A stretch of DNA of 64,000 bases from Tribonema minus. Taxonomy: Eukaryota > Sar > Xanthophyceae > Tribonematales > Tribonemataceae. The DNA is taken from assembly GCA_017506865.1 (NCBI GenBank), contig JAFCMP010000047.1:124001-188000 (forward strand), in the 5' to 3' direction. Below the pieces are notes generated by a model. The model saw only the letters and a program-made list of their open reading frames with translations. It searched no databases and had not been told where the DNA came from. Within the stretch, counting starts at the first letter, position 1, and each line of letters opens with the position of its first letter. Of the stretch, positions 26,636 to 54,100 are shown piece after piece. Made by a program: the position numbers and the translations under genes.

Positions 26636-27856
26636 TACTTCCTCCGTCCCCTAAGTATTTTATATCATTGTCAGCTCAAGGCCAACTTCTGCATATCAAT
26701 GATTTAGATGATGGGTCCATAATCATGATGATAGCTGAGTCTCAAGCTTTCTGCTGATACCTTCAAAAGTTGAAAATTCCATGATGTTGACGTTCAAACC
26801 TGGTCACATGTGCAACTTGAAGACGGCATGCGCCCTACACGATACATCAGAGGGAGCGCTTGCTTGCAGCTGCTAATGATGGCACAAGGTCCAGAATTAC
26901 TACGCACACCGTGCCGCCAGGTGGTGCGTGAGGGTGGTAATCCGGCGTTGCATTCGGAGGTCACGAATGGAGCAGGTTGATAGGCAAGTGCCCGCAACTC
27001 ACTGCCAGCCCCATGCAATGAGGAGCAGACACTCGATCAGCCTTTGACAAGCAGCAAAGATAACGCACAGCTGCTACACGACCTGCTGATGTGCTGTGCG
27101 TGTCGCATACCGATGTTGTGTTCGGGGTGTACAGCTGCCTGCGACTGCAACTCTGCACGGGGGCTGCAGGCTGCGGTTCATCCCCTACAGCCCCAGCCGA
27201 GCTGTACGTCATGCCTGGCCTTCTAATAGTATTATACAAGCTATAGCAGTGACCTAAGCACCAGCAAGTTGGTGGTAGGTGCCTTCAAGGCCTCACTGCT
27301 GACACCTAGTGGCCAAGGCGGCGGATCACCTATGCCTTGGTAGAGCACTGGGAACGAGCACATCGTTCACGTAGCTGGTCGCTGAAATGTTGTATAGTAG
27401 CTTCATTGCCAGTATACTGCAGTTCCTGCACGTTGCAGCCTATGCCATGTGCATACAACCCTGTTAAAATGAAGAATACCCAGACATGCAGTTGAAGTTG
27501 CACAACCAATTCAAGTCGCTTGTGCCTTATGCAGTGTATGCAGTGCGTGCGGGGTCCAAACACGCTGTGAGCTGGTGCTGAATCCTGCCTCATGTTTGCT
27601 CTGTGACACATCAATACCCAGCATGTGTCAGTAGTTCTTGAACATCACTAGTGGCAGTGCAGCCAGGAGGTCATGTTGCTGATCTGCGGGAACACGGGCG
27701 CAATAGGCTGCGGATAAGTTGCTGTCACAAGAATTGGCAGTTTGTAGGCCCATCGAGGAGTTGAGCGCTGAGATATTGACACAAGCTGGGCCTGAGCCCA
27801 ATATTTGTATTTGCTTAGCAGTGTCTTCTCTGATGGCATGCTTGTCAGGCAGCATT

Positions 27857-30685
27857 GTACACCTGATGTGGCAGTTTGGCGTAGGGTACCGGTCTGGCGT
27901 CGAGCATGTGGCAGCGCGCGCGCGCGTGTGGCACGAGCTGTATGGCACCACAATCCAGCTGGACTGTGAGAACGCATTTAACTGTGTGGATCGCGCCGCC
28001 ATTGTGCGGGGGCTTATGCTCTTCTGTCCGGAGCTGCTCCCGCACTTTGAGTCCGTATACTGTGGTGACACTGCCCCAGAGATGCGAGTGGAGGTGAACG
28101 GTGAAGCTCGCATTATCTGCTCCCACCTAGGGTGCCAGCAAGGGGACCCTCTAGGGCCGCTGTACTTTGGAGTGGCAGCGGCCTTCCTACTCTTCTACCC
28201 TGATGGAGTGAATGCGACGCCCGGCAGTATGCCGGCCTACGGCCACAGCACAGCGGAGCCACCAGCCCCGCACTGCGCTTTCCTGGATGACCTCAACGTG
28301 CTGCAAGCTGCCTACTTCGACGATGCAGCGGCCGCTGGGGTGGCAGAGGTGATCCGTCGGCTTGCGGCAGGGGGCCTACGCGTTCGACCAGACAAGTCGC
28401 TGGCCATCGCCATGCGCGGCACAGTGTTTGATGAAGCGGCCAGAGCACGCCTGCGCGCCCTTGACATACCGTTTGTGGACGCCACCATGCCAGAATCCAG
28501 TCAGGGCTTTACGTCGGTCGGGGTACCGGTAGGGCACCCAGCCTATGTGCATGCTGCCATGAGCAAGCATCTTGTTGACGCAGGGACATGGCGATTGTCG
28601 TGGCAGCTAGCTGGAATGGCGCGGCATCACCTACAGGCAGCACAGTTCATTCTGCGCAGGTCACTGACGAAGCGCATGGGCTTCTTAGCTCGGGTCGTTG
28701 ACACGGCTTTGAGTGAGACATGGCTGCACGCATTTGACGGGTTCTGTGCATGGACGCTTGAACGCATGCTGCACCTGCACGGCTGCGCTACCGCGGCAGT
28801 CATGAAGTCACACCTGCTGGCCGCCTGCACTGCTGGTGACAATGAGGAAGCCAGCAGTGGCAGCGTGCTGGTATTGCCGCGCTTGGGCCCGCCAGAACTC
28901 ACGGACATCGCAGTGCCACTGCGGGCGTCACGGTTGCCGGAGCGACAAGGCGGTCTGGGCATGCCGCTTTTGGGGCTACTGGCACCAGCCGCATACACGG
29001 CCCAGGCATGCACAACACTGCGGCCTGCAATAATTCATGCCACTGTGGCAGCAGGGGCCCTGAGGCTCGGCACTGACGAACACGGCGCAGTCACCTGGTT
29101 CGCGCAGCACTCATGCGCAATACGCGAGGACCAGGGACTGCCGCCAATCATCGAGGCCGTGCGACGCTCTACGCGAGCGCTGACAGCTGATGGCGGCGAA
29201 AAATCACGCACAGCTGTGGCCGAGCAGCTCCCAGCATCGTTGCTACGGTGGGCAGCAGATACGACGGCCGCAGCGTCGACGCTCCCCACTGCGGTGCAAG
29301 CGATCTACGCCGCAACTGCCGTCACGGAGACGGGGACCACTGAGCCAGCCCCACACACCCACGGCATTGTGCCTGGCGCCGAGGCGGCCGCCGCGGCGGC
29401 GACCGTACCTGGCCCTCAAGCCGCTGCCGCGGCTGCCTCTTCCACGCCCGCTAAAACACAAACTAGCGCGGAAGAAAGCAGCTGCAGCGGCGGGCAGGAG
29501 GACGACGACGACGACTGGGAGGCCTATGCTGACGAGATCTGCAGGAAGGTAGTGCCCCGCCGCCGGCGCGGTCACTTCACGCACGGACTACAAGCCGGCC
29601 TTTCAAATGTTCTTCGACGTCAATACGAGGACTGCCTGGTGGAGGACCTAGAGGCTGCCTCGGCTGGTGCCATGGGCAAGCCGACGCAGGCTACACTTAT
29701 TGGTGACTCGCGTGACACCAGCCGCCGCCGCCAACAGGCTAGCGCGCGGGTCCTGGCGCAGCTGCGCAGCCAGCGTGCGTCCGGGGCAATGGCGTGGATG
29801 AGCGTGCCGCCCGCTGCCAATGACCGCCCGGGTGCGGCGCCCATGTCCAGTATGGCAGCAGCCACGATGGTTTTGGTTGCGATCTTTATAGACGGGTGGG
29901 GCATACAGGGCGAGGTGTGCCCATGGCGGTGCAGTGACGTGAGCCCCACCTCCACGCATGCGATCAGCTGCCCCAGCCAGCACATACGGGGGCACAACGC
30001 GACACACACTGCCCAAAAGCGGTGCCTACAGCGCATCTTGAGACAGCACCATGTCTCTATTGTCCGCAATGAGGACGCTAGCGTCTTCAAGGTACCGGGG
30101 TATCGGGCGGACACAGTCATCGACCCAGGGTGTCTGCACTTTAGCAGTGCATACCGTAACAAGGGAATAGTGCTAGACACAAGTGTGCGCGCGCCCACAG
30201 CGAGCTCGTACCTGACAGGCAAAACAAATGCCTCGAACACGGACGGCTATGCTGCTGGGGTGGGGGAGGACGCGAAGGTCAAGCACCACACCGGCACCTT
30301 GACGTCATCTTGGGCTTTTGTGCCATTCGTGCAGGAGTCGTACGGACGGCTGGGCAAGCAGACAAGCCTTTTTGTTAAGGAGTTGGCGATGCACTCAGCA
30401 CTGTGCTCAGGGGGGGGGAAGGCAGATGTGTTACGCAAGGCCGGGTTAGCTAAGCGTCAGATCTACATTGAGCTGAGCATATCGCTGGCGCGGGAGTTGG
30501 CGGAGCGCGTCATGGCATACACACGTGGAGCGCGAATGCTGGGCTGTGTTGCGGCGCCGGTATCCAAACTCCTAGGGCACAGCGCAGACTAGGCTGCTGC
30601 GTTGACGCAAGCTTTTCGATTGCATAGGCAACCCGGCCTCCCTTGGGCCTTTATAAATACAAGTCCATACGTACACCTGATGCGG
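27857..30685 (+). mobile_element. 5'-truncated non-LTR retrotransposon with target-site duplication
   Basis: Flanked by direct repeats GTACACCTGATG(T/C)GG at 27857-27871 and 30671-30685, of which the first 12 bases are identical. RT homology begins exactly after the left copy, as expected for 5' truncation during target-primed reverse transcription. The 3' end is ...ACAAGTCCATAC; there is no poly(A). A second, much shorter copy of the same 3' end lies at 56311-56426 on the other strand. Confidence 0.8.
27874..30592 (+). CDS. Reverse transcriptase with C-terminal zinc knuckle and restriction-like endonuclease
   Basis: The open frame runs to a TAG at 30592 (about 905 residues from the insertion junction; the frame is open upstream too, but that part is host sequence without an ATG). 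Motifs: QFGVGYRSGVEH, QLDCENAFN (motif A Asp), GCQQGDPLGPLYFG (motif B), FLDDLNV (motif C, FLDD instead of the common F/YADD), and KSLAIA. A low-complexity Ala/Pro/acidic linker follows (about 29300-29520). A Cys/His cluster comes next (CPWRC...HAISCPSQH...GHN, about 29918-29995). The last part is a PD-(D/E)xK-like module (RADTVID, VLDTSV, EDAKVK, then FVPFVQESYG). It copies and inserts element RNA. The fingers region is missing by truncation, so this copy cannot be autonomous even though the frame is open. Confidence 0.8.
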
Positions 30686-34683: not shown

Positions 34684-37600
34684 TCAGCTCAAATTTGTAT
34701 ACTTCTTGTGCATTCTCAGCTGGATGTGCCGAAGATTGAGCGTTTGCTCGACACGACCGGCTTCCAGGGCAGCATCTGAGCCCTCCTGCGGCTGCTGCTG
34801 TCGAAGGTGCTGTACCTTATCCGTAAGCTCTGCGATTTCGCGCTCCACGAGCAGCTTGACCGCTAGGTCACGCGCAGCCTGCACCTGTTCGAACTGACAA
34901 AAGGTGCGCATGCAGTGCAAACAGCACCCAATCAGCCAAAACTAATTCGAGGGGTGACCCTGCACTCTTGCCTTTTTCTTCCAATTCACAGGTTCGAATG
35001 ATGGCAACGTAATAGTGGGCGCAGCGCTGACAGAGCATTGTACAGATAGCGTGCACACAATAAAAGAGACAGCAGCGCAAGCCATGTGGAGTTGCAGTAA
35101 GGCAGAACAAGAGTTGTGCGTTGCTGCGTACAATCTACTTGTAAACAACTCACATGTGGGGTATCATGACACGTAAAGTATAGTACTTCGAAGTACATAC
35201 TTCCAAGTACAATCCTCCATATACACTATAGTGCACAACAATACTCCATATACACTTATAACCGATAAACCTAAACTCTCTGTAATGCACCAAGTTCTAT
35301 TGGTCATTAACCTCATGTTGTCGCCTGTTCGGCAATATTCAGAGCTCAACGATCTTTTTGATTTGTTTTTCATTCAGCATCATCATTGTCGTCACCGTAC
35401 AGCACACTGCTTGGTGACAAAGGGACTAGAAAGGAAAGCAAGACTGCGTATCTGTGCTATGCCTCAGGTGCCCATGCACAGCGCAAAAACGGCTATGTAT
35501 GTATGATACGCCCTGTTTTATGAGAGCTCAGCGGTGTGCTACAGCATGCTAACTTACCTTGTTGTCGGTGGAGGCCTGTGGAGGTGGGGGTGTCCTCAGC
35601 TATAGCTGTCTTGTGCCAAGACCGGAGGTAGAGAATGAAGTGAGTGTGCAGCTGCCTTTTTGGCAAGTTGCAATTGGATCCTCGGCACAATCCAGGGGAT
35701 CTGACTCAGGAGTAACATGTATGAAACCCTGCATCATCACCCGACATACCAGGGGTATGCCCTAATAATGGCATCATCAGACACGGATACCACAATGTAC
35801 AATCCGTAACAGCTCCCCCTTCGTCGATTCGTCGTCGTCCTCGACGGCGGTCTCAGGGATCAGCGCTGCAAACAGAGGCACATTGGGCCCACAGGACTCG
35901 CACGCTAAGACTCTATGTTGACACATGAGCGGCTGGTGTCAAGTAAAGCTGTTCGAGTCAGAGCGGTAGGAGGGATGGCGAGCCCCACAGGGTGAATCCG
36001 GGGGCGGCTAAAGCACAGCACGGATGTAAGCCAAGGAACTCTCAATGGACACGGGTGTGTCGGCTTGGTTGACAATGAGATTCCAAGTGCTATGGGGGGG
36101 ATCCGTCAGCGGAGCGTTGGCGTCTTGCTCGTTGACTTTGTAGTACCCCTCACGCAAGCGCAGGCGCCGTGGCCGTGCTTCGCCTGTGAACAGCACATCG
36201 AAGGTGTGCCGTGAATGGCGAGGGTGGTACGCTACAAGGCGGCCGCGAGACCAACCAGTGCAGCTGCTGTAGTACCGGATCACATCACCGACGTTGTCTG
36301 CACCGAAGTTGCGAGGTAGCAGAGGGCTGGTGACAAGAGTGATCTGCGGCTTGCTGGCGGTGATGCCGCGTCTCTGGGCTTTGCTCTTCGCTGCTTCAGC
36401 CAGGGCGATGGCAGCCTTGACCTCAGTTGCGTTGAGCTCCTCCCATTCGCCATCGTCGTAGCGAGGGCGCCAGTAGGGGTGGAGGTAACCGCTGATGGCA
36501 CCCCAGATGTACTCGCGTGAGCCAGAGGGGGTGGTCACCTCGCGCACCACTGTCGTGCCGCGTGAAAACCGCTGTAGGGCCTCTTCAACCGAGAGCCGTC
36601 GCGTGGCTGGAGGCTCGGGGCGGCGCGCGTACAGGGGTATGCAGTCGCCATGACGCAGCTCATACATGGCGTGGAACGTGTCAAGTACCCACGGCTGCGT
36701 CATTTCAAGCATGGCAGCTTCGCTGGTGAAGTCGCTCTGCTGGCCCGTTCTGTCGATGTAGCGGTACTGCCACTTGCCGTTGGGGCCGACGCGTCTGTCG
36801 ACTATGCGTTCGAGCCATTCCTCATGGGGAAGGTCTTGCAGTTGCGCTGCTGTGAGTTGCACGTGTGGAGATGTGTGCTCAAAGTGGCTGGGGCGGAGCC
36901 GGAAGGGCTTCATGTGCGTGACGTGCACAGATTTCTGTTTAATGCGGCTGCCCATCATTCGACATGTGAAGGAGAGTCCTGAGTTACCTGCTTTTTCCTT
37001 TACTTGCCAGGGCCCAGTGTACTTCTCGTCCATCTTGCGTGCGCGCTCTTCGACTGGCTCTCGTCTGACGAGGACCCAATCTCCGATGGCGACGTTGACG
37101 GAGCGTTTGATAATGTCGTTTTGCTTTGCCACTTTGGCAGCACGCTTGCCGAAGGCTTCACTGATGACCTTTTCAGCCAACAGCCGTGACTCAGCGCGCT
37201 TTTCGACCTCCGTGTGTAGGTCCATGGGACGGTCTGCGTGGTGAAACGCGTCGTGCGGCAGGGTGTCTTCACGTCCGTAGACGCAGAAGAACGGTGACAG
37301 GCCCGTTTCGTCGCGAGGAGTTGCTCGCAGTTGAAACTGTAGTGTCTCGAGGCCTTCGTGCCAGTTGTCTTGGCGGTCGTTCACCCACAGGCGGAGTGAT
37401 TGCAAGACGCGAGCGTTCATGCGTTCGGCGACGCCGTTAGTCTGGGGGTGGTAGCCACTGGTTTGGATCTTCTTCACGCCCATGCTGGTGCACAAGTCAT
37501 GCACGACCCCAGCAATGAACTCTCCACCCTGATCAGTGACTATCTCTTCCACGAGGGCGCCTGCCTCTAGGATGACAGTGTAGAGGTGCGCTGACACCTC

Positions 37601-40600
37601 TTTGGAGTCTTTAGACTTGAGTGGGAAGAGCCACACAAAGCCAGACCTGGCCTCAACCACAGTAAGGATGTACTCAAACCCTCCTGCCCTCGAGCCCGGC
37701 GAGACAAGGTCTGCGTTGAGCCGTTGGAACATGCGAGTGGGGGGAAAGAGGTGTGTCCTGTACCGGGATGTGTTGGCCTTCTTGTTCAGCTGGCACGCCA
37801 TGCAGCTGGTCACATAGGTGCGGATGTCATGGGCCATGCCAGTCCAGTAGTAGCGCTCAAACACACGAATGTGGGTGGCGCTGACGCCGGAGTGGCCCGC
37901 GCTGGCGTCGTCGTGGCACAGACGAAGCACCAGGGTGCGTAGCGCGGCAGGGACGACCCATTGACACAGCACTTGTCCGCGTTTGGGATGACTGCTTGCG
38001 AAGTGTATGAGGAGACCGTCATGCTCAAAAATGTAGCACTCGCGTGCCACCATCAAGTGCACGGCAAGGTCTTTGTCCGTGGGCAGCTCCTTGTCAGCCA
38101 GCAGGCAAGTCACTGCACAGCAGAAGGGGTCGCGGCGCTGAAATTCGATCAAGGCCTCACGACTCAGCATGGCAGGTGTAGGCGGCGGTCCAGCACTGGC
38201 AGGCTCTGGCTGCGCAGCAAGAGGTGTGGGCTCAGGCCGCGGCAGAGTGCGCTTACGGGGGCGCTCACCGTCACAGTTGGTACGTGCAACGGCGGCGTCA
38301 GCGGGGTCCGCGTCGATTGTCACAGTGGTGGCAGTGGTGGTGGCCACCTGGACGGCCTTTCCTGCGTTGCTGCGACGCTTCTTGCTTTGACGCCAGGGCT
38401 CGAGAGTTGCCCAAGCCGAGGCTGTCCCTGTCCCCTTTGAAGTGTTCGTCAAGGAGAGCGTTCATGTGCATATCCATGGTGGCCGGGGTGAGCAGTGTGG
38501 CGGCTTCACCTAGTGCGACCTCACATGGGGACTCATCTGCGTGCATGTGGAGCAGCTGCTTTGCTTGCTCTGGGGTCACCTCGCTGAGGGACTGCGCGAT
38601 GCCTCCAAAGCTGGCCAGGCAGGCTGCAAGCTCGTTAAGGCGGAAAGGCGTGCCCATAGAGTGCTGCACGTAGCCTTTGTATGAGGCCACGGTGGCGATG
38701 CGCTCGTCAGAGGGGCGCTGGCCGGGCTCCGTGGTGTCGGCTCGCTCCACTGCGTGTGTGGTGGCTGGGTCGTCTGCGAACTGCACACCTGACGGCGGCG
38801 CATCAAAAGTGGCAATGGAGTCGGGCCACTCCTCATCGGCATGGTCGACACGGCGGGGCGCGTCTAGCTCTGCCTGCTGAGGCAGCCGAGAGGGTCCATC
38901 GGCGTTGGAGTTGACCTTGCCAGGTCGGTGCTGGACGGTGATGTCGTACTCTTGTAGGCGCATTGCCCAGCGGAGCAGCTTGCCGTCATTCGATTGAAGT
39001 GTGAGGAGCCAGCGGAGGGCAGCTGCGTCGGTGACGACAGTGCATGGCCTGCCCCAGACGTAAGGCCGAAAGTGGTTCATTGACAAGACTACTGCAAGAC
39101 ACTCGAGAGCTGTGGCTCCCATCTTGGCGTCCTGAACAGAGTTCATCTTTGAAAAGTAGCCCACAACGACCTCACGCTGCAAGGTCCCTTCAACCAAGCT
39201 AGTGCGCCCAGTGCAGGTTGGTGGCTTGGCTTTCATGAGCGGGCTGTCAAGCTCCGTGACCGGCCGGAACTGCGTGAGAACACCGGCAGTGGCGACCTTG
39301 GAGGCGTCCGTGTAGAGCACGAAGGGCAGTGAGAAGTCGGGGTGCATCACTATGGAAGCGCTACACATCTCCTGCTTCAGCCGCTCAAAAGCGTCTCTGC
39401 GGCGTGCGTTCCACTCCATGCACGCGCCATCCTTGGTGAGCTCGACAAGCGGGGCTGCGATGGCGCTAAAGTTGCGCACGTAGCGGCGGTAATAGTTGAA
39501 CACGCCTAGAGCGACTTGTACGAGCCGCTTGTCTGCGAGGCCCCTAGCGTTGAGGGGTGCGCTCATGTCTGCCATTGCCTTCACCTTTTCAGGGTCAGGG
39601 CGAATGCCACCTGCACCAATGATATGTCCAAGGAACTTGACCTCAGAGCGGAAGAGTTGGCACTTCTTCCAGGCCACACTCATGCCTGCAGCCTCTATGC
39701 GCGTGATAACTGCGTCAAGGTGCTGGAGGTGGGCCTCCATGTCGGTGTCATAGACGAGCACATCATCCACGTACACGGTTGCGTAGTCCTTCAGGGCTTC
39801 CTCGCCCAGCACACCGTGCATGAGTCGCGTAAATTGTGCAGGCAAGTTCACCAGGCCAAAAGGGGCCACAGTGTACTGCCAGAGTCCACCATCAGGCGTG
39901 CGGAACGCCGTTTTGGGCTTTGCGGACGTGGTGAGGGGCACCTGGTGGTAGCCAGCAGCCATGTCCAGCGTGCTGATCACCTTGGTGCCTTGCACTTTGT
40001 GCAGCATGTCATCTATGTTGCCCAGCCCGTGGCTGTCTCGCTTGGTGACAGAGTTCAGCTTGCGGAAGTCGATGCAGAAGCGAATCTTGTCACCCTGTCG
40101 TGCGAGAACGGGGTTGCAAGCCCAGGGGCTATTGGAGGGCTCAATCTGCTTGCGTGCGTGCATCTGAGCCATCTGTTGCATGATGTACTCAGCCTCTGCG
40201 CGGGCCCAACGTCTGGCTCTGTCCGCCATGGGCAATGCATCACCGGTGTCAATGTCGAACTCGGTGGTGTCTGTGACGTGCGGGTTTTTTGGGTCAGCCG
40301 GGAAGCAGGCGCGATGCCGCTTCAAGACGTCAAAGACTCGGTCTGCCCATACTTGCCCCTTCGAGTCCTTCTCCTTGAGTATGGGGTTGAGTTGACCATC
40401 GGTCATGAGCATGGTGCGCAGCTCCTCATCCCCACAAACGTCTGAGACGGAGCTGTATGCGTTCACTTGGGCGGCGGAACCAGGTGAGCGCTGCGGACTG
40501 TGTGTGCCTGGCGCAGTGCTGGGGGAGTCTGACTCCTGTATGGGCGGTTCGGAGGCTAGGGCTTTGAGTGCAGCGTCTGCGGCCTGCCTGAACGCCTTCG

Positions 40601-43600
40601 ACTGGTGGTGTCTGACTGCATATTCCAGCACGCGCTTCTGCAACTCACGTTTGAGCTGCTCTGTGTTCTGACTGGTCTGCTCATCAAGCTCAAGGATGTC
40701 CTCCTCTGTGGCAGGAATGGCTGTGCCCACAAAGGTGTTCTTGCGGATGAGGACAGGCAAGGAGCCAGTGTTGACAAGCTTGACCATGACAGGGTTGTTG
40801 GGTGCGACTGTGACCGCAGTGAAGGCTACGCGAAGGCCCTGCGCAGCTAGGCTCTCCATCACCTGGTCATGGCTCGCATGAATCAACGCAGTGTGCTCTG
40901 GCGTGTCCTTAGGAGGCGGGAACAGTGCGAGTTCGACCACTTGTTCTGAGAATGGTGACATCACAACCTCTTCTAGGAGGCGCGCACTGCGTTTGGCAGT
41001 GGGCGGGGAAGCAGGGGCTGCGACGACTCTGTCCACGAGGCCCTTGAAGTTGCACAACCTCGATGCCTTGTCGTCTAGCTTGTGCCGCATGGGGATGGCA
41101 ACGCTGGAGTCTGGCGTGGGGAAGAACTCCATGGTAGAGTACGACAGGCTACTGCCAAAGCTCCCAAAGAAGTCGCCGCCGATGATGGCAGGCATGGGTA
41201 TGTCGGTCACATAAAACCGATGACGAACGAGGGTCTTCCTGAACCGCAGAGTCATCTGCACTGCGCCGGTGATAGGGATGCGCGTTTTACTGTCTGCAAG
41301 TTCGATGGCGGTGAAGTCACCCTGTCGCAACGGTTGTACGCTACCCTCTGGGAGCCGTCTGCTCTGCTGTATGCTCAGCAGGCTCGCCGTGGCTCCGTTG
41401 TCCAGCATGCACTCCATGTTCAGCTCTTTGATGTCTCGCTGGTGGGGCATGCGTGTGATGAGGTTGATGAACCGTTGTGCGCTGGGGCTGCCTGTGGCGT
41501 AGGCCACCTTCTCGCCTGGCTGCACAGGCACATGAGAAAAGCTAAGCGCTGCGAGGTTCGCAAGGGGCTGTTGTTGAAGTTGAAGTTGGGGTTGTTGGAG
41601 TTCTCCCCCTTCTTCTGAGCAGTCCATGGGCTCAGTGTCAGAGTCAGCGTCTGCAGAGACTGGGTCAGGTGCTGCATCTCTGAGAAAGCTGGGCGCGACC
41701 GCGTCTGTGTCGCTCTCCTGCTCACCAGTGTTGTCTGGCACTAAGTCGACTGCAGACAGCTTGGCACGTGCTGTGCTTTCGCTGTCGCGGGAGATGCGTT
41801 GGACAGCGTTGATGCAGCGTTGCACGAGCGTGTGTTGCGTCTCTCGTGAGGCCGTGCCGTCTGTGTGTTCAAGCGCGGCAGTGCTGTCAGCGAGCCACTC
41901 AGGTGTGGGCGAGTTGCGATCCAATGACATTGCAAAGCCATCATCAGAGGGGCTGGACTCTTGCATGTCAAAGATGCCACTGCACCATGCAGCAAGCAAG
42001 AATGCGTGGGCGACATCAGGCATAACAAGGTTGGCCAGCCACAGCTGCAACTGCTCTTGGCTGCCAGTTGGCAAGTCAGACCTGTATGTCAGCATGAGCG
42101 CCATGTCGCGGGGGGTGACAGTCATAGCATCACGTACATCACATGCGTCATCGGGGGATGGGATGTAGTGAGCAGGGTTCACAGGAGGCAAGCCAGGCCA
42201 GCGACGCGTGGGGCTGCCAAACAGTCCATCAAGGTCATGCACGCCTTTGGAGGAACGCACGCGAGGGCGCAAGAAGCAACCGCGAACACGGCGTGGAACC
42301 TTCAGAACATGTCTCATGGAAAGTGGAATTCCATTATTGCACATGGCATTGAGGACTGCGCAAAGGCGCTGGAGCACGGCCTTGACACCAAGGCGGTTGC
42401 GCACAATGAGGACGAGCGCGCGCGTACGCCTGCAGCAGGTGTCAAGCACCGATGCCTTGATGACTGTCTCTAACACTGCGTACCCATTGGCCAACAGGTG
42501 GGCCTTCCCCCTACCCCATGCTTGCGACTTGAGCATCTGCGGGACGTTCTCTGACAACACCAACTCAAGCTCTGCCTCCGTAACCACCTTGGCCAGCTTG
42601 TATGTCAGCTCCGCCGCCTCTCCCTCCACTCCCTCCCCGTTTGCAAAATCTGTGCAAGGGGTAGAGGACGTAGTGAGGTGAGGGCGCAGCTTGCGCAGTT
42701 GGTGGATGATGCGGGGATCATCAAATGACATGCACTGGGGTGCGGCAGACGTAGGGTGTGTCTCCCTATACGCGTCACACGTCTTCGCGCAGTTGTCAAC
42801 AGCGAGCACTGTGTTGACATGCAAGCCAAGTTTACTTGCCTGCGCAAACCCTTCCTCCCAACCGCCTACCCCGCAGCACAGCGACGCGTGCGTGAGATGG
42901 CGCTCCATCGCCTGCTCCCTAGCACGCTCACTCATCTGAGACGCGGCAGGGGTCGCAGCAGCAGGGGGAGGGGGAACAGCCACGTGAGGGCGTGCATGGA
43001 AGGGTGCCGGCGGTGCAGTCATGCCAGCGTCAGTAGGCGCAGATGCAGCAGAGGCATGCGCAGCATGCGGTATCACCGGTGCCGCAGGGGCACTCGCACC
43101 AGGCGTAGATGCCGATGCAGCGCGCGCAGCGTGCAATGTCGCAGGTGCAGCAGGGGTACTTGCAACAGGCGTGGGTGCAGACACATTGGCAGGCTGAGCT
43201 ACAGCAGACGACATGACGCCCAGCGCAGCAAGCATTGCGGTCGCGCAGCGGGGTGCGTGAACGTTTAAGCGGCTGTCGAGCACTGACTCACTGTGTTTGG
43301 TGGCCATGGCGGCGGCGATGGCTGCCTGGATGTCGGCCGTCCACGGCTGCACTGCGGCAGCGGCCGCAGTGGGGGCTGGGGCTGGTGCCGGCGCCGCGGC
43401 AGCAGGTGCCTGGTACACGGTGGGCCAGGAGGGTGCGGGGCCGGCACCGTGCATGGCAGCCAGCTGCGGGACCACTTGCGGCGGCATGGCATAGATGGGC
43501 GCTCCCTGCATCGCGAAGACAGGCGCGGCAGAGGCAGGCGGCGCAAGGTCGCGGCTGCGACTGCGCGACGGGGCGCGGCGGTTGTCCGACACTCAGAGCT

Positions 43601-46600
43601 TGCGTGATGATCGGCATACCGTTCGCCAGTGGTAACCATCACACCACAGCGCTTACATGTCCAGTTGTTGAACGGCTTGTAGGTCAAGCCGGGCTTAGGG
43701 TTAGAGGCCGGCTGGCCGTCCTGCGCTGCTTTGCGCTTCCGGAATTGAGAGGCGTGGAAGGCGGCGCAGCAGCAGGGGCGCCCTTGCCATGGAGCACCGC
43801 AAGCTGCACAAACGCCAACTCCGTGTTATCCGCCTCTAGTGCAGACCGGGCTGCTTGGACACACTCTTGCCGCTTAGCCTCCTTGGACGCCTTGCGCCGG
43901 GGAAGGCTTGCAGCGTCAGGCGCCTGCGTAGGGGTGCCTTTAGGGGGGGTGACAGTGGCGACGACAGCGGGAGTGTCGTGAGCGCCAACGCTGTCTGGGA
44001 GCGGGATCCCATGCTCTTGCAAGTGAGTGCGCCAGACGGCGGCGGCGTGGTTCACGTTTACTGTGAGGGGGTCCTGCCAGAAGTTGTCACGCCTGTCCAG
44101 CTGAACCTTAACAAAGTCAGGCATGCAGCTGTAAAACTTCTCACGGCGAGTGGCCTCGTTAGGGCCCCCCTCTACACGCCGGCCATAAGTGTCAAGCCTG
44201 TTGGCAAAGTCACGCGGGGACTCAGCATGCCAGTCGTATACGAGGCGAGACCACTCATCGCGCGCAGTATGGCGTGCAGTCCAGTCATCATATTTGGTTG
44301 TGAGGGCAGCTACGCGCTGGTCATAGGTGAGGGTGTCCCAGCCCGTGGTAACCCCGTCAATGGTGGCAGAGAGCCCAGACACCTCAGCACGCTTGTCTGC
44401 AGGGATGGCAGCATCAAGAGCAACAGACCAATACTCTCTCTTCACGCCCCACTGCTGCCACATGCGTTCACGTGAGGAAAGCGCAGATGTCAGCTGCAGC
44501 GGTTCAAGGCATAATGTGGAGGGGAGTTTGGCGATGATGTTCAGCTGTGCAACGCGCTCCCTGTCAGGATCGCGGGAGGGTTCGTCGCGAGGAGCGTCGT
44601 GGGCAGGCAAGGGGTTAGCAATACCTGCGCGAGCGTTGCGCTTGGCGGCGATGGCGTTTACGACCTCTTCAGCGGTAGCGCCACCGTTGAGGAGTTTTAG
44701 GGCGTGAGTAGCTAGCTCGCGTAGGATGACCAGCTGAGCGCTGCTGGCCTCGCGGGGTGCCCTGTAAGAGATCAGCGCAGCGTCGAACTCTGACTTGTCG
44801 GCGGAGAGAGCAGTGAGCTGCTTGCGGATATCGGCGCGCTCAGCGTCAGTGGCGGCCTTGACAAGAGACTTCTGAGCGCGTTGGATGTCGGCGTCCACGC
44901 ACATCAGAGCAACCTTGAGCCGGTTAACGGCGTCAGAGGCTTGGCGCGACTCCTCTGCAAGGGAGGTGTGCTCTGCGCGCAATGACACAAATAGCTCTTT
45001 GACCGCCGCCGGAGCGTCTGTCGGGGGGTCAGGGATGAGAGCTATGGCCTTGGATGCGCGAACAGGCTCCCTGACGGTGGTGTCCTGTGCGCGACCAGGA
45101 GCGGGAGGAGTGCTAGAAAGTGCGTCTTGGCTGCGGCTCACCGGGTTTTGCGCGGCGCGCTCGCTGCGTCCATCACCCTCCAAGGCGGAGTTGTCCGCGC
45201 CAGAGCGTGCACGGGGACGGCCAGCGGCTTCCTCCGCCTGCTTGGCAGCAGCTTCAGCAGCAGCAGCGGCAGTGGACGAACGCGGAGTGGTTGCAGGGGC
45301 TGCGACTCTGGCGGAGGCGGCACGCTTGCCATTGCCCCTGCGCTCAGCTCCCTGGTTCCCAGCCGCGTTACCACTCTCATTGTTTGCCATCTGCTGAGAC
45401 GAGAAAGTAGGGAGAGGGTGAGCTCCAAGACTTTGGTGCATGTAGTCAGTGGTGGTTTTTATGCTCATGCGTGTGGTCATGAACCAACAGGAGCAGCGGG
45501 CACAGCATCACATGTGCACTTTGCTGCCAGTAAACCACTCCTCCCCCCATTGCGATATGATGCTGGGGTCGCTGCGAGAGGAATGGTGCATGTGAAGTCC
45601 ACGGCCCTACCACCAAAGCCGTGGCGGCGTCATGACATGCAACACGGGTGGCCACCTGTACGCCTCGCATCTTGAGCGTGGAGAGGGCAGTGCCAGCGTC
45701 CGACGGCAGCTGGCGCGGCAGACAGTCTCTGTCAGGGCTGCCCTACTGACTACATCACGTCAACATTCAAGGCTCGATGGTCGATCATGGCAATGTGCGA
45801 GCACCTGGGTGCTGTCGGGACACACATGTGCGCATGCCTGCTTGAGCAACACAGGAGAGCAGCCGCAGGAGACTGCACGAGCCAGTGAATGCCGTCTGCT
45901 TCGCGCAAACACACACACACATATAAACTAGTGCCACTTTGCTTCGAAGGCGGAGCGTCCCACTTGAGGTTAGCTGGCCACGGCAGGCGGCCACGATGTG
46001 TACGGGTTAATTGTCGTTGGCTGGCCACGAGAGGCGGCCACGATGTGTACATTCAAGCGGTGCTGCACTACGCTGTGCTACACTACGCTGTGCTACACTA
46101 CGCTGTGCTACCCTGGAAGCCTACGGAGGGCTGTCGAGCTTAGCGTGGCTCCGCCATTGAGGCAGACGACCGTGCACAACGCTGTGAAGCGTTGCGAGGC
46201 CTCGCAGCTAAGGCGGAGGACACGCACAAGCGCCTGCTTCGAGTGCCACTGTTTTATGAGAGCTCAGCGGTGTGCTACAGCATGCTAACTTACCTTGTTG
46301 TCGGTGGAGGCCTGTGGAGGTGGGGGTGTCCTCAGCTATAGCTGTCTTGTGCCGAGACCGGAGGTAGAGAATGAAGTGAGTGTGCAGCTGCCTTTTTGGC
46401 AAGTTGCAATTGGATCCTCGGCACAATCCAGGGGATCTGACTCAGGAGTAACATGTATGAAACCCTGCATCATCACCCGACATACCAGGGGTATGCCCTA
46501 ATAATGGCATCATCAGACACGGATACCACAATGTACAATCCGTAACAGCCCAACTCACAGTGGCTCGCTTGGGAAGCTTCCCTTCTCTTTCCCATTGATC

Positions 46601-51126: not shown

Positions 51127-54100
51127 TCAGTGGTTCGGAGCGTTGCTGCCTTCCTGAACAAACACAGCAGTGTCTTCTGCAGCCTTGCGGCCCTCCTGTC
51201 CGAGCCGCATCCCCGATGCAACGGCCGCCTGGCGGCAGCAGGTGACGAGGACAAAGTCATGAGCGGCGAGCAGCAGTGATCGCAGCAAGTGAGGCGCTTG
51301 TTGCCATTCAGTCTGGAACTGAGGTGGCTCCATGCAGCTGCACTCCTGGCAGGTCTGATACTTCGAAGTACAAGAATCGCATCAGGGCTGGGCAAGAACT
51401 TCGGCAGTGTTTGACAACAATTCCCATGTGAATCATTGGGTGCAGGAATAAGTGTGAGGGATCACAGATGGTTGCAAGCCATCTGTTGGACTGACTTGCG
51501 CTTGGCGCTGGCGTCGCAGCTTTCAAACTAGATTGGCATTTAAAACTATAGTATACTGAGCATGTGCCACAGTGTCTGGTTCTGCCAAAGGTCATACTGC
51601 CACGTCGCCCCTTCACCAAGCTGACAAGTCAAACAGATGAAAGGCACTTGATTTGCGCAATTCAAGATGTGGCGCACCTGTGCGGCTCTCTCCGCCTCCC
51701 TGATAGCAGAGTTGTTGCCAGGGACATCCGAGCTGGTCGCGTGGAAATCGACAGTGGGCGCAGTGGGCGGCGCCTGCGCAACGCCTGCGCTGGCGTCCAG
51801 TGGCGTCTTCTGCTCCAGATACGCCAGGCCAGACTGCACGTATGCCGACGCGTCCTGCTCATGGCAGGTACATTAGCACAGATTCATCGCGTGAGACACA
51901 CAGTATCAGTTGCAATGCACACGAACTCTGCCCATGATAGGTACAATAGCACAGATCCTGTGCCATCGTCCAGTGGCGTCTTTTGCTCCAGGTATGCCAG
52001 GCCAGATTACACGTGTGCCGATGTGTCCTGCTCATGGCAGAGGCACAGGCACATCACGCATGATACAAGCCGTAACACTTACAGCGCTAGTGACCTCTGG
52101 AGGCGCAGCAAAAGTATGAATTGTACAGCGCCCAGTACCGACAAGAAGAAGTACACAACAAGTCATGGCGGAAAAACGTGTCAAAAAATGAGCGACCGAG
52201 GCCATTTATTTCTGTGCTTTTTTTTTTTTTCATGCTGAGCACTGGTACGGTTGAAGTATTGAAATGACTTTAGCAAGCAGGTTCAAAGTACAAATGAGCC
52301 TCATGCATGCATAGCGCTCCATTTTGCAATGCAGCTTATCTGCACGACAGACCTAGGGTGGGGGCACGAGGGGCATGAGGCAGCTAAGATTTGCCGTCCC
52401 CTTTCTGGAGGCAGCCTTGTTGTGCCGTAGCCAACTTCGTTATGCTTGCAAGTGCGTGCCAGAACACAACATGCTGTTGCGTCCGCCGCTGACAATTTGG
52501 GTTGACATGGACGGTTTTTGATGAACACTTACAGCGCTAGTGACCTCTGGAGGCGCAGCAAAAGTATGAATTGTACAGCGCCCAGTACCGACAAGAAGAA
52601 GTACACAACAAGTCATGGCGGAAAAATGTGCCAAAAAATGAGCGACCGAGGCCATTTATTTCTGTGCTTTTTTTTTTTTTCATGCTGAGCACTGGTACGG
52701 TTGAAGTATTGAAATGACTTTAGCAAGCAGGTTCAAAGTACAAATGAGCCTCATGCATGCATAGCGCTCCATTTTGCAATGCAGCTTATCTGCACGACAG
52801 ACCTAGGGTGGGGGCACGAGGGGCATGAGGCAGCTAAGATTTGCCGTCCCCTTTCTGGAGGCAGCCTTGTTGTGCCGTAGCCAACTTCGTTATGCTTGCA
52901 AGTGCGTGCCAGAACACAACATGCTGTTGCGTCCGCCGCTGACAATTTGGGTTGACATGGACGGTTTTTGATGAACACTTACAGCGCTAGTGACCTCTGG
53001 AGGCGCAGCAAAAGTATGAATTGTACAGCGCCCAGTACCGACAAGAAGAAGTACACAACAAGTCATGGCGGAAAAACGTGCCAAAAAATGAGCGACCGAG
53101 GCCATTTATTTCTGTGCTTTTTTTTTTTTTCATGCTGAGCACTGGTACGGTTGAAGTATTGAAATGACTTTAGCAAGCAGGTTCAAAGTACAAATGAGCC
53201 TCATGCATGCATAGCGCTCCATTTTGCAATGCAGCTTATCTGCACGACAGACCTAGGGTGGGGGCACGAGGGGGCATGAGGCAGCTAAGATTTGCCGTCC
53301 CCTTTCTGGAGGCAGCCTTGTTGTGCCGTAGCCAACTTCGTTATGCTTGCAAGTGCGTGCCAGAACACAACATGCTGTTGCGTCCGCCGCTGACAATTTG
53401 GGTTGACATGGACGGTTTTTGATGACGTAGAACTCAACGGCAGGCAAACCTCACGCGCGCATCCGGTTCATGGCAGTGCATGTGCAAGTTGTTCATTTAC
53501 TTTCAGCTAGTGGTTCTATAAATGTTGTAGCTGGGCGGCACAGCCGCACCATGTTGTCACGAATCAGCAGTGGCTTCAAGCATACTTCAAGTACGATCCC
53601 TACAGTAACCTAAGCTATCAGACGTAGACCGGCCGGCATGAAGGCTTGACGCACCAATCAGGGGCAGAGAAATGCTGCTTCAAACCGCACGTACATCTGT
53701 AAATATCAACAAGAAGTAATTACATACGGTGAAGGTGTGACAGCATACTGCCTGCCTACAATGACATACCTGCTTGGCACGCTCGAGCTCCTGTGCCGCC
53801 GTTTCATTGCCCCCGCTGAACAAGAAGTCCTTCACCTTCGAGCCCGCTGGACCTTCTCCAACATTCCGCTGCTCCATGTCCGCCAACCCAGACTGTACAT
53901 ATGCCGACGAGTCCTGGCAGCGAGCAAGCGTGCCAACAAATATCAGGATCATGCGAAAAGAGCAGGCAAGCGGATGCACCATCAGCGCAGGCAGCAGGCA
54001 GCTTGATGCCGATTCCAAAGTCTCATCAGGGCCGTCGTCACCAATACAAAATTCTCGCTCTTTAATCACACAAGCCTTCGAGGCGCTGCACACAGATTGA

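Follow-up and report, generated by a model that had tools for sequence, protein, structure and literature searches.

The methyltransferase carried by a Ty3/gypsy retrotransposon of Tribonema minus is supported, by sequence comparison, as a lasting and selected part of gypsy Pol, present in many copies. It was analysed in a stretch of 64,000 nucleotides of contig JAFCMP010000047.1 (the window) and throughout the genome. Through a long evolutionary history the domain has stayed in working condition, a sign that the element may itself use the mark, beyond being silenced by it. Methyltransferase-bearing retrotransposons were already known; apparently new here are a further host with many gypsy copies, the other enzyme class and the two positions of the domain.

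The element and its methyltransferase domain

A complete Ty3/gypsy retrotransposon with paired LTRs and a target-site duplication occupies positions 35510-46551 of the window on the minus strand, the strand of all element features below except the duplications, which are strandless. The 5′ LTR (46250-46547) and the 3′ LTR (35514-35811), each of 298 bp, start with TG, finish with CA and have the same sequence (298/298 bp identical), and GCCC is duplicated at 46548-46551 on the 5′ side and at 35510-35513 on the 3′ side; as far as the LTRs go, the earlier note had rightly called the element young. A putative primer binding site starting TGGCACTCGAAG (TGG...) was read by eye just after the 5′ LTR (46231-46248), as was a putative polypurine tract preceding the 3′ LTR (35812-35822). 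No tRNA gene was found in the window, and no primer tRNA for the TGG... site.

The Gag-like ORF (43684-45480) was named by position, the Pfam search giving no match. The Pol ORF (38298-43592, 1764 aa) contains methyltransferase, protease, RT and RNase H in that order. The C5 cytosine methyltransferase domain (41988-42890) was assigned from PF00145 and its motifs, with the catalytic Cys in STPCTDF, and is followed by a protease-like segment recognized by eye (DNGATASLL ... AIIGGDFF, 41166-41408), at the corresponding place of which a subfamily member gave weak matches to PF13975 and PF13650; the placement of the domain between Gag and protease in the earlier note therefore stands, with Gag taken from its position. 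Reverse transcriptase (PF00078, RVT_1, E 1.6e-28) was matched at 39618-40091 (Pol residues 1168-1325) and RNase H (PF17917, E 8.6e-23) at 38946-39338 (Pol residues 1419-1549), and the integrase ORF (36008-38452) contained H2C2 (E 2.2e-19) and rve (E 2.2e-8). The order RT, RNase H, integrase is as in Ty3/gypsy, both in the window element and in the family members fetched from the genome. Near its end the integrase shows a Tudor-like patch (36413-36502, in the tail) with a weak PF21743 match below cut-off (E 0.15); the same profile matched the tails of two subfamilies (L064 and L065) at E 4.6e-4 and 0.0062, also below cut-off, so that all three tails tried gave weak matches.

Compared with a single-frame family member, the window copy showed 90 mismatches and 33 gap positions in one aligned block of 9361 columns, and its polyprotein is spread over frames (Gag in frame 1, a short stretch in frame 3, methyltransferase to RNase H in frame 2, integrase in frame 3), with the methyltransferase frame open. 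Because several frames are used, this copy, although recent by its LTRs, is probably not autonomous as assembled, the indels being either real or from the assembly. Elsewhere in the window, a 957-aa ORF (27719-30592, plus strand) gave a weak RVT_1 match (E 2.1e-5, below cut-off) and is perhaps a non-LTR element, and three 450-bp units form a tandem array at 52074-53425 (99% matches).

The earlier note had read a C5 methyltransferase in the minus-strand Pol of a Ty3/gypsy element, and its proposed profile search confirmed both identity and location: PF00145 matched Pol residues 235-403 with E 5.5e-13 and 49.5 bits against a curated cut-off of 22, over positions 3-167 only of the 324 in the profile. 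The motifs HASLCCGVGGWEEGF (42846-42890), STPCTDF (catalytic, 42645-42665), SENVPQML (42531-42554) and CRRTRALVLIV (42402-42434) were present where that note had them. As to its 'complete set' of motifs, the C-terminal half is strongly diverged, and the Pfam match stops before the target-recognition region and two divergent stretches, which we take to be IX-like (42069-42128) and X-like (42000-42044), so that completeness rests on reading by eye and on conservation of these stretches across subfamilies. In an alignment of 20 domain rows (identity to the window's domain 30-44% in 19 rows), 22 columns were invariant, including two glycines, LAV, the catalytic Cys, EN and RxR; the glycines, EN and RxR presumably belong to motifs I, VI and VIII, respectively.

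In a search of solved structures with a profile of this first type of domain, DNMT2 scored best (2.9e-13, over the catalytic half only, profile 2-172 of 318), followed by HhaI (4.3e-10), with weak matches to DNMT1 and to one chain, Rad8 (0.0019), which we take to be DNMT5-like. Membership of DNMT3 was unsupported, as none of the 52 solved-structure matches up to E 10 was a DNMT3. The window's domain used as a single sequence matched no solved structure up to E 1, and an NCBIfam search returned the dcm superfamily alone, with a score under the cut-off. From these comparisons the domain is called an orphan C5 methyltransferase, non-DNMT3-like.

Copies, selection and methylation traces

The genome searched comprised 158,181,000 bases in 554 contigs. 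The 300-aa domain gave at least 131 scored matches (391 candidates), 126 of the listed 131 being without internal stop. At least 17 loci, the window included, were 95-100% identical (two of these gave a second fragment), and the remaining listed matches fell at about 45, 43, 40, 38 and 33% identity, the lowest subfamilies at 32%. Five members (L062-L066, on five contigs, from groups A, B, D, E and F) were fetched at 9.9 kb; each had a single open frame of 2732-3277 codons in which PF00145, RVT_1, RNase H, H2C2 and rve followed one another, the rve of L065 and L066 scoring below its cut-off. The genome-wide count suggested in the earlier note thus found the domain in other copies, with order and frame kept in 5/5 full members, and neither of the refuting outcomes named in that note (no significant PF00145 match, absence from all other copies) came about.

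An RT-RNase H query gave 99 scored matches (637 candidates). Among the matches listed, 80/99 related RTs were preceded on their own strand, at a distance of 1-4.5 kb, by a methyltransferase match, and 19/99 had no linked one. Of the latter, those in contigs C6, C450, C55 and C161 sit about 3 kb or less from the contig start; three others (two in C27, one in C507) resemble, by their positions, split or nested copies; neither circumstance accounts for the other 12. No gypsy group shown to lack the domain was found among the matches listed in this genome. One family A member (G000:C311:3922-7902) lies within a 6208-aa open frame, about twice that of other copies, and may represent two tandem elements joined through an LTR that is itself open. 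Stand-alone C5 methyltransferase ORFs of 367-390 aa (L001, L002 and L003, contigs C223 and C181), which may be of host, viral or bacterial origin, gave the genome's strongest PF00145 matches.

Selection was estimated on the domain by the NG86 method for 18 pairs. In 12 of these dN/dS was 0.085-0.22 (dS 0.07-1.6), and two near-saturated pairs gave 0.26 and 0.34. Values of 0.50-1.25 came from four close pairs in groups D and G; within family A, mean pN/pS was 0.37 (nine distinct domain haplotypes, 36 pairs). RT and methyltransferase trees of nine elements showed no supported conflict, the deep methyltransferase forks being without support, and the methyltransferase evolves faster than RT. For this first group the data fit one gain followed by co-inheritance, with selection for a working enzyme and some copies relaxed.

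Substitutions were counted in family A (15 of 17 loci yielding aligned sequence, in 12 distinct rows) and family B (12 of 13 loci, in nine distinct rows); L019, L025 and L027, which fell under the 90% identity filter, were left out. Singleton transitions affected 43/566 CpG bases against 53/1805 other C/G bases in family A (odds ratio 2.7, p 4e-6) and 7/569 against 4/1716 in family B (odds ratio 5.3, p 0.007), with no CpG excess of transversions (8/566 against 29/1805 and 1/569 against 3/1716, respectively). The CpG observed/expected ratio was 0.825 in the element and 0.866 and 0.785 in its flanks, which is no depletion in the element. The transition excess, counted in domain-bearing copies only, hints at methyl-CpG in the copies, which could stem from a host enzyme.

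A second group of elements and known systems

PF00145 also matched long frames with an only remotely similar domain (L005, L007, L008, L083, L085 and L086). In this second type, as read by eye, the usual post-protease linker lies upstream of the methyltransferase, as does a protease-like segment in L007 and L008. RNase H is found in register on the downstream side, each time in a frame reported at the same length as that of the methyltransferase (C66, 2758 aa; C340, 2936 aa; C84, 2396 aa); L090 (C66) continues, by eye, through H2C2- and integrase-like sequence. Searched against the genome, this domain scored 97 of 409 candidates and gave at least 103 listed matches, the majority with an identity of 93-100%, about 63% or about 37%. 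With its methyltransferase between protease and RT, the second type indicates that at least two gypsy groups in the genome carry the domain, at two places in Pol (Gag-protease and protease-RT). In a 23-row tree that included five remote methylases, with eight rows belonging to neither type, each of the two types came out as a single clade (100/99 and 97/93), and the two were joined (94/98); this joining, in a tree with too few references for a choice between one capture and two, counts if anything against two. In C509, PF17917 (278287-278637, minus strand) lies upstream of PF00145 (277630-278118, minus strand), in register within a reported 1015-aa open frame; this is a lead only, pointing to a third position that the domain may take, behind RNase H.

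Three proteins were retrieved from the protein database with the domain as query: P0001 (98% identity, on a 2587-bp ENA contig) and the fragments P0002 and P0003 (67-81% identity, on a 16200-bp JGI contig). Their occurrence in other public data means that the family extends beyond this assembly. The domain alignment A1 added five further remote methylases, and Pol region 225-545 found no relative among 2141 candidates in the protein database. Viral contigs scanned with the domain, alignment A1 and the second type yielded pattern matches (3, 39 and 2, respectively), as did genome contigs scanned with P0001 (55), with no relative among them.

The published methyltransferase-bearing retroelements found in the literature come from dinoflagellates and charophytes. 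The suggestion of a further lineage or an independent capture holds in so far as the enzyme is non-DNMT3-like and two light-harvesting proteins, on comparison, appear to be of the red and not of the green lineage. Among solved chains, these two proteins scored best with multi-repeat 9vfj chains and were otherwise nearest to ACPI, ACPII, CAC and 7y5e chains and one 9kc5 chain; the entries other than 9vfj are, we believe, mainly cryptophyte and red-algal. Light-harvesting matches are abundant in the genome (92 for PF00504, often split between exons). A polyubiquitin insert is a cercozoan marker; the polyubiquitin repeats are spaced 228 nt apart, so no such insert is present. Profiles for phycoerythrin (PF02972), DNMT1-RFD (PF12047) and SRA (PF02182) gave no match, and neither did their 14 controls, so that these negatives do not count as absence.

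Comparison with known systems follows the available portions of the cited papers. The nearest published case is KnitGypsy-Dnmt3 of the charophyte Klebsormidium nitens (de Mendoza et al. 2018, PMC5890265), likewise a gypsy element whose Pol includes a cytosine methyltransferase; it too has several copies and is under purifying selection. It differs in its DNMT3 domain and DIRS-like repeat structure, whereas the window element has plain LTRs and a domain set apart by the lack of DNMT3 likeness; many more copies occur here, and a second group has the domain at another position. SymbioDIRS-Dnmt3 of Symbiodinium (PMC5890265) likewise joins methyltransferase and RT in one ORF and has very many copies, but is a tyrosine-recombinase DIRS element with DNMT3, unlike the non-DNMT3-like gypsy described here with its DDE-type integrase (rve). 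Two SymbioDIRS-Dnmt3 domains produced de novo CG methylation in yeast; the KnitGypsy domain gave none, an outcome that its authors term inconclusive (PMC5890265). SymbioLINE-Dnmt, also of Symbiodinium, resembles the window element in being an orphan non-DNMT3 cytosine methyltransferase on a retroelement (PMC5890265; 'orphan' DNMTs, PMC12344493), but there the element is a LINE and the domain has an ORF of its own (ORF1), the comparison being one of published descriptions. Gypsy-10_Ec32 of Ectocarpus carries a C-terminal Tudor-like reader, with which the weak PF21743 match may be compared, although that match is below cut-off; the available text of PMC12477816 mentions no cytosine methyltransferase in Gypsy-10_Ec32. 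DNMT3 has been described in LTR Copia and DIRS elements (PMC12344493), and Ty3/Gypsy and DIRS elements that encode DAM and DCM have been reported from stramenopiles, from red and green algae and from charophytes, the enzyme per host not being specified in the part available (PMC6338049). Given these elements, there may be earlier sightings; beyond the cases named, no gypsy-borne non-DNMT3 cytosine methyltransferase was found in the literature covered, which excluded subscription papers and preprints.

Possible roles of the domain

On balance, we lean towards an ancient capture of a C5 methyltransferase by a gypsy group, kept since under purifying selection, with an enzyme that is made in cis, travels in the particle and methylates new cDNA. 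The gypsy group would long ago have gained the methyltransferase as a domain of a single Gag-Pol, between Gag and protease, and purifying selection would have retained it through many subfamilies. Translated within Gag-Pol, in cis with RT and RNase H, the enzyme would be packed into the particle together with RT and methylate the new cDNA before or at integration, and the new copy would thus already be marked on entering the genome. That the enzyme serves the element's own cycle is supported by where it sits in the polyprotein and by the purifying selection on it; activity, cDNA as substrate and benefit to the element are what we infer. The ideas in the earlier note that self-methylation could soften host damage or let copies escape excision go a step further and stay hypothetical. 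The reading as a whole is supported by PF00145 in Pol, shared order, copy number, the linked matches of 80/99 RTs, invariant catalytic motifs, dN/dS, agreement of RT and methyltransferase trees, the CpG transition excess and the precedent of SymbioDIRS-Dnmt3 domains active in yeast (PMC5890265, in part). It is weakened by a CpG observed/expected ratio no lower in the element than in its flanks, the four close pairs with dN/dS of 0.50-1.25, the 19/99 RTs without a listed linked match, best solved relatives (DNMT2) that act on RNA, and the KnitGypsy domain without methylation in yeast.

The DNMT2 tRNA methyltransferases, as the best solved relatives, together with the putative TGG... primer site, bring into view an unlikely role in methylating RNA (element RNA or the tRNA primer) and so aiding packaging, priming or stability, akin to the RNA methylation proposed for SymbioLINE (PMC5890265, in part); the DNMT2 likeness covers the catalytic half only, however, and HhaI is near, so that this likeness is no guide to the substrate, and no primer tRNA was found in the window. 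The enzyme might instead work in trans, on the chromatin of the host or on competing elements and not on the element's own cDNA, and so manipulate the host or temper transposition. The high copy number would suit this, and the element could be tethered to chromatin by the weak Tudor-like patch of its integrase; we regard this too as improbable, the domain lying within the polyprotein with RT and not in a separate ORF, an arrangement that favours delivery to the particle. With its C-terminal half strongly diverged and Pfam coverage limited to profile 3-167 of 324, the domain might now be a non-catalytic module binding nucleic acid or SAM, but this seems quite unlikely against a catalytic Cys, EN and RxR that are invariant over 20 rows and purifying selection on the domain. 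The broken frame of the window copy is what a one-off chimera, a host gene fragment or an assembly error might leave; such an origin has a negligible probability, with at least 17 loci at 95% or more identity, the order kept in 5/5 full members from five contigs, and purifying selection. Chance or a one-off chimera is ruled out by the other copies, the shared domain order and the selection.

Beyond capture and self-methylation in the first group, a wider reading can be offered tentatively, though it is rather unlikely: two gypsy groups may separately have gained orphan non-DNMT3 methyltransferases at Gag-protease and protease-RT, and possibly there is a third position behind RNase H, perhaps coupled to a Tudor-like integrase reader. 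Cytosine methylation is usually a host weapon against transposons, and elements that carry and keep a methyltransferase reverse that role. The different domain places provide natural replicates for comparing elements, substrate and effect on transposition, and the reason for transposon self-methylation becomes directly testable. If recurrent gain is true, self-methylation would be a general, selectable strategy of LTR elements and, with a Tudor-like reader on the integrase, a single element would both write and read chromatin marks.
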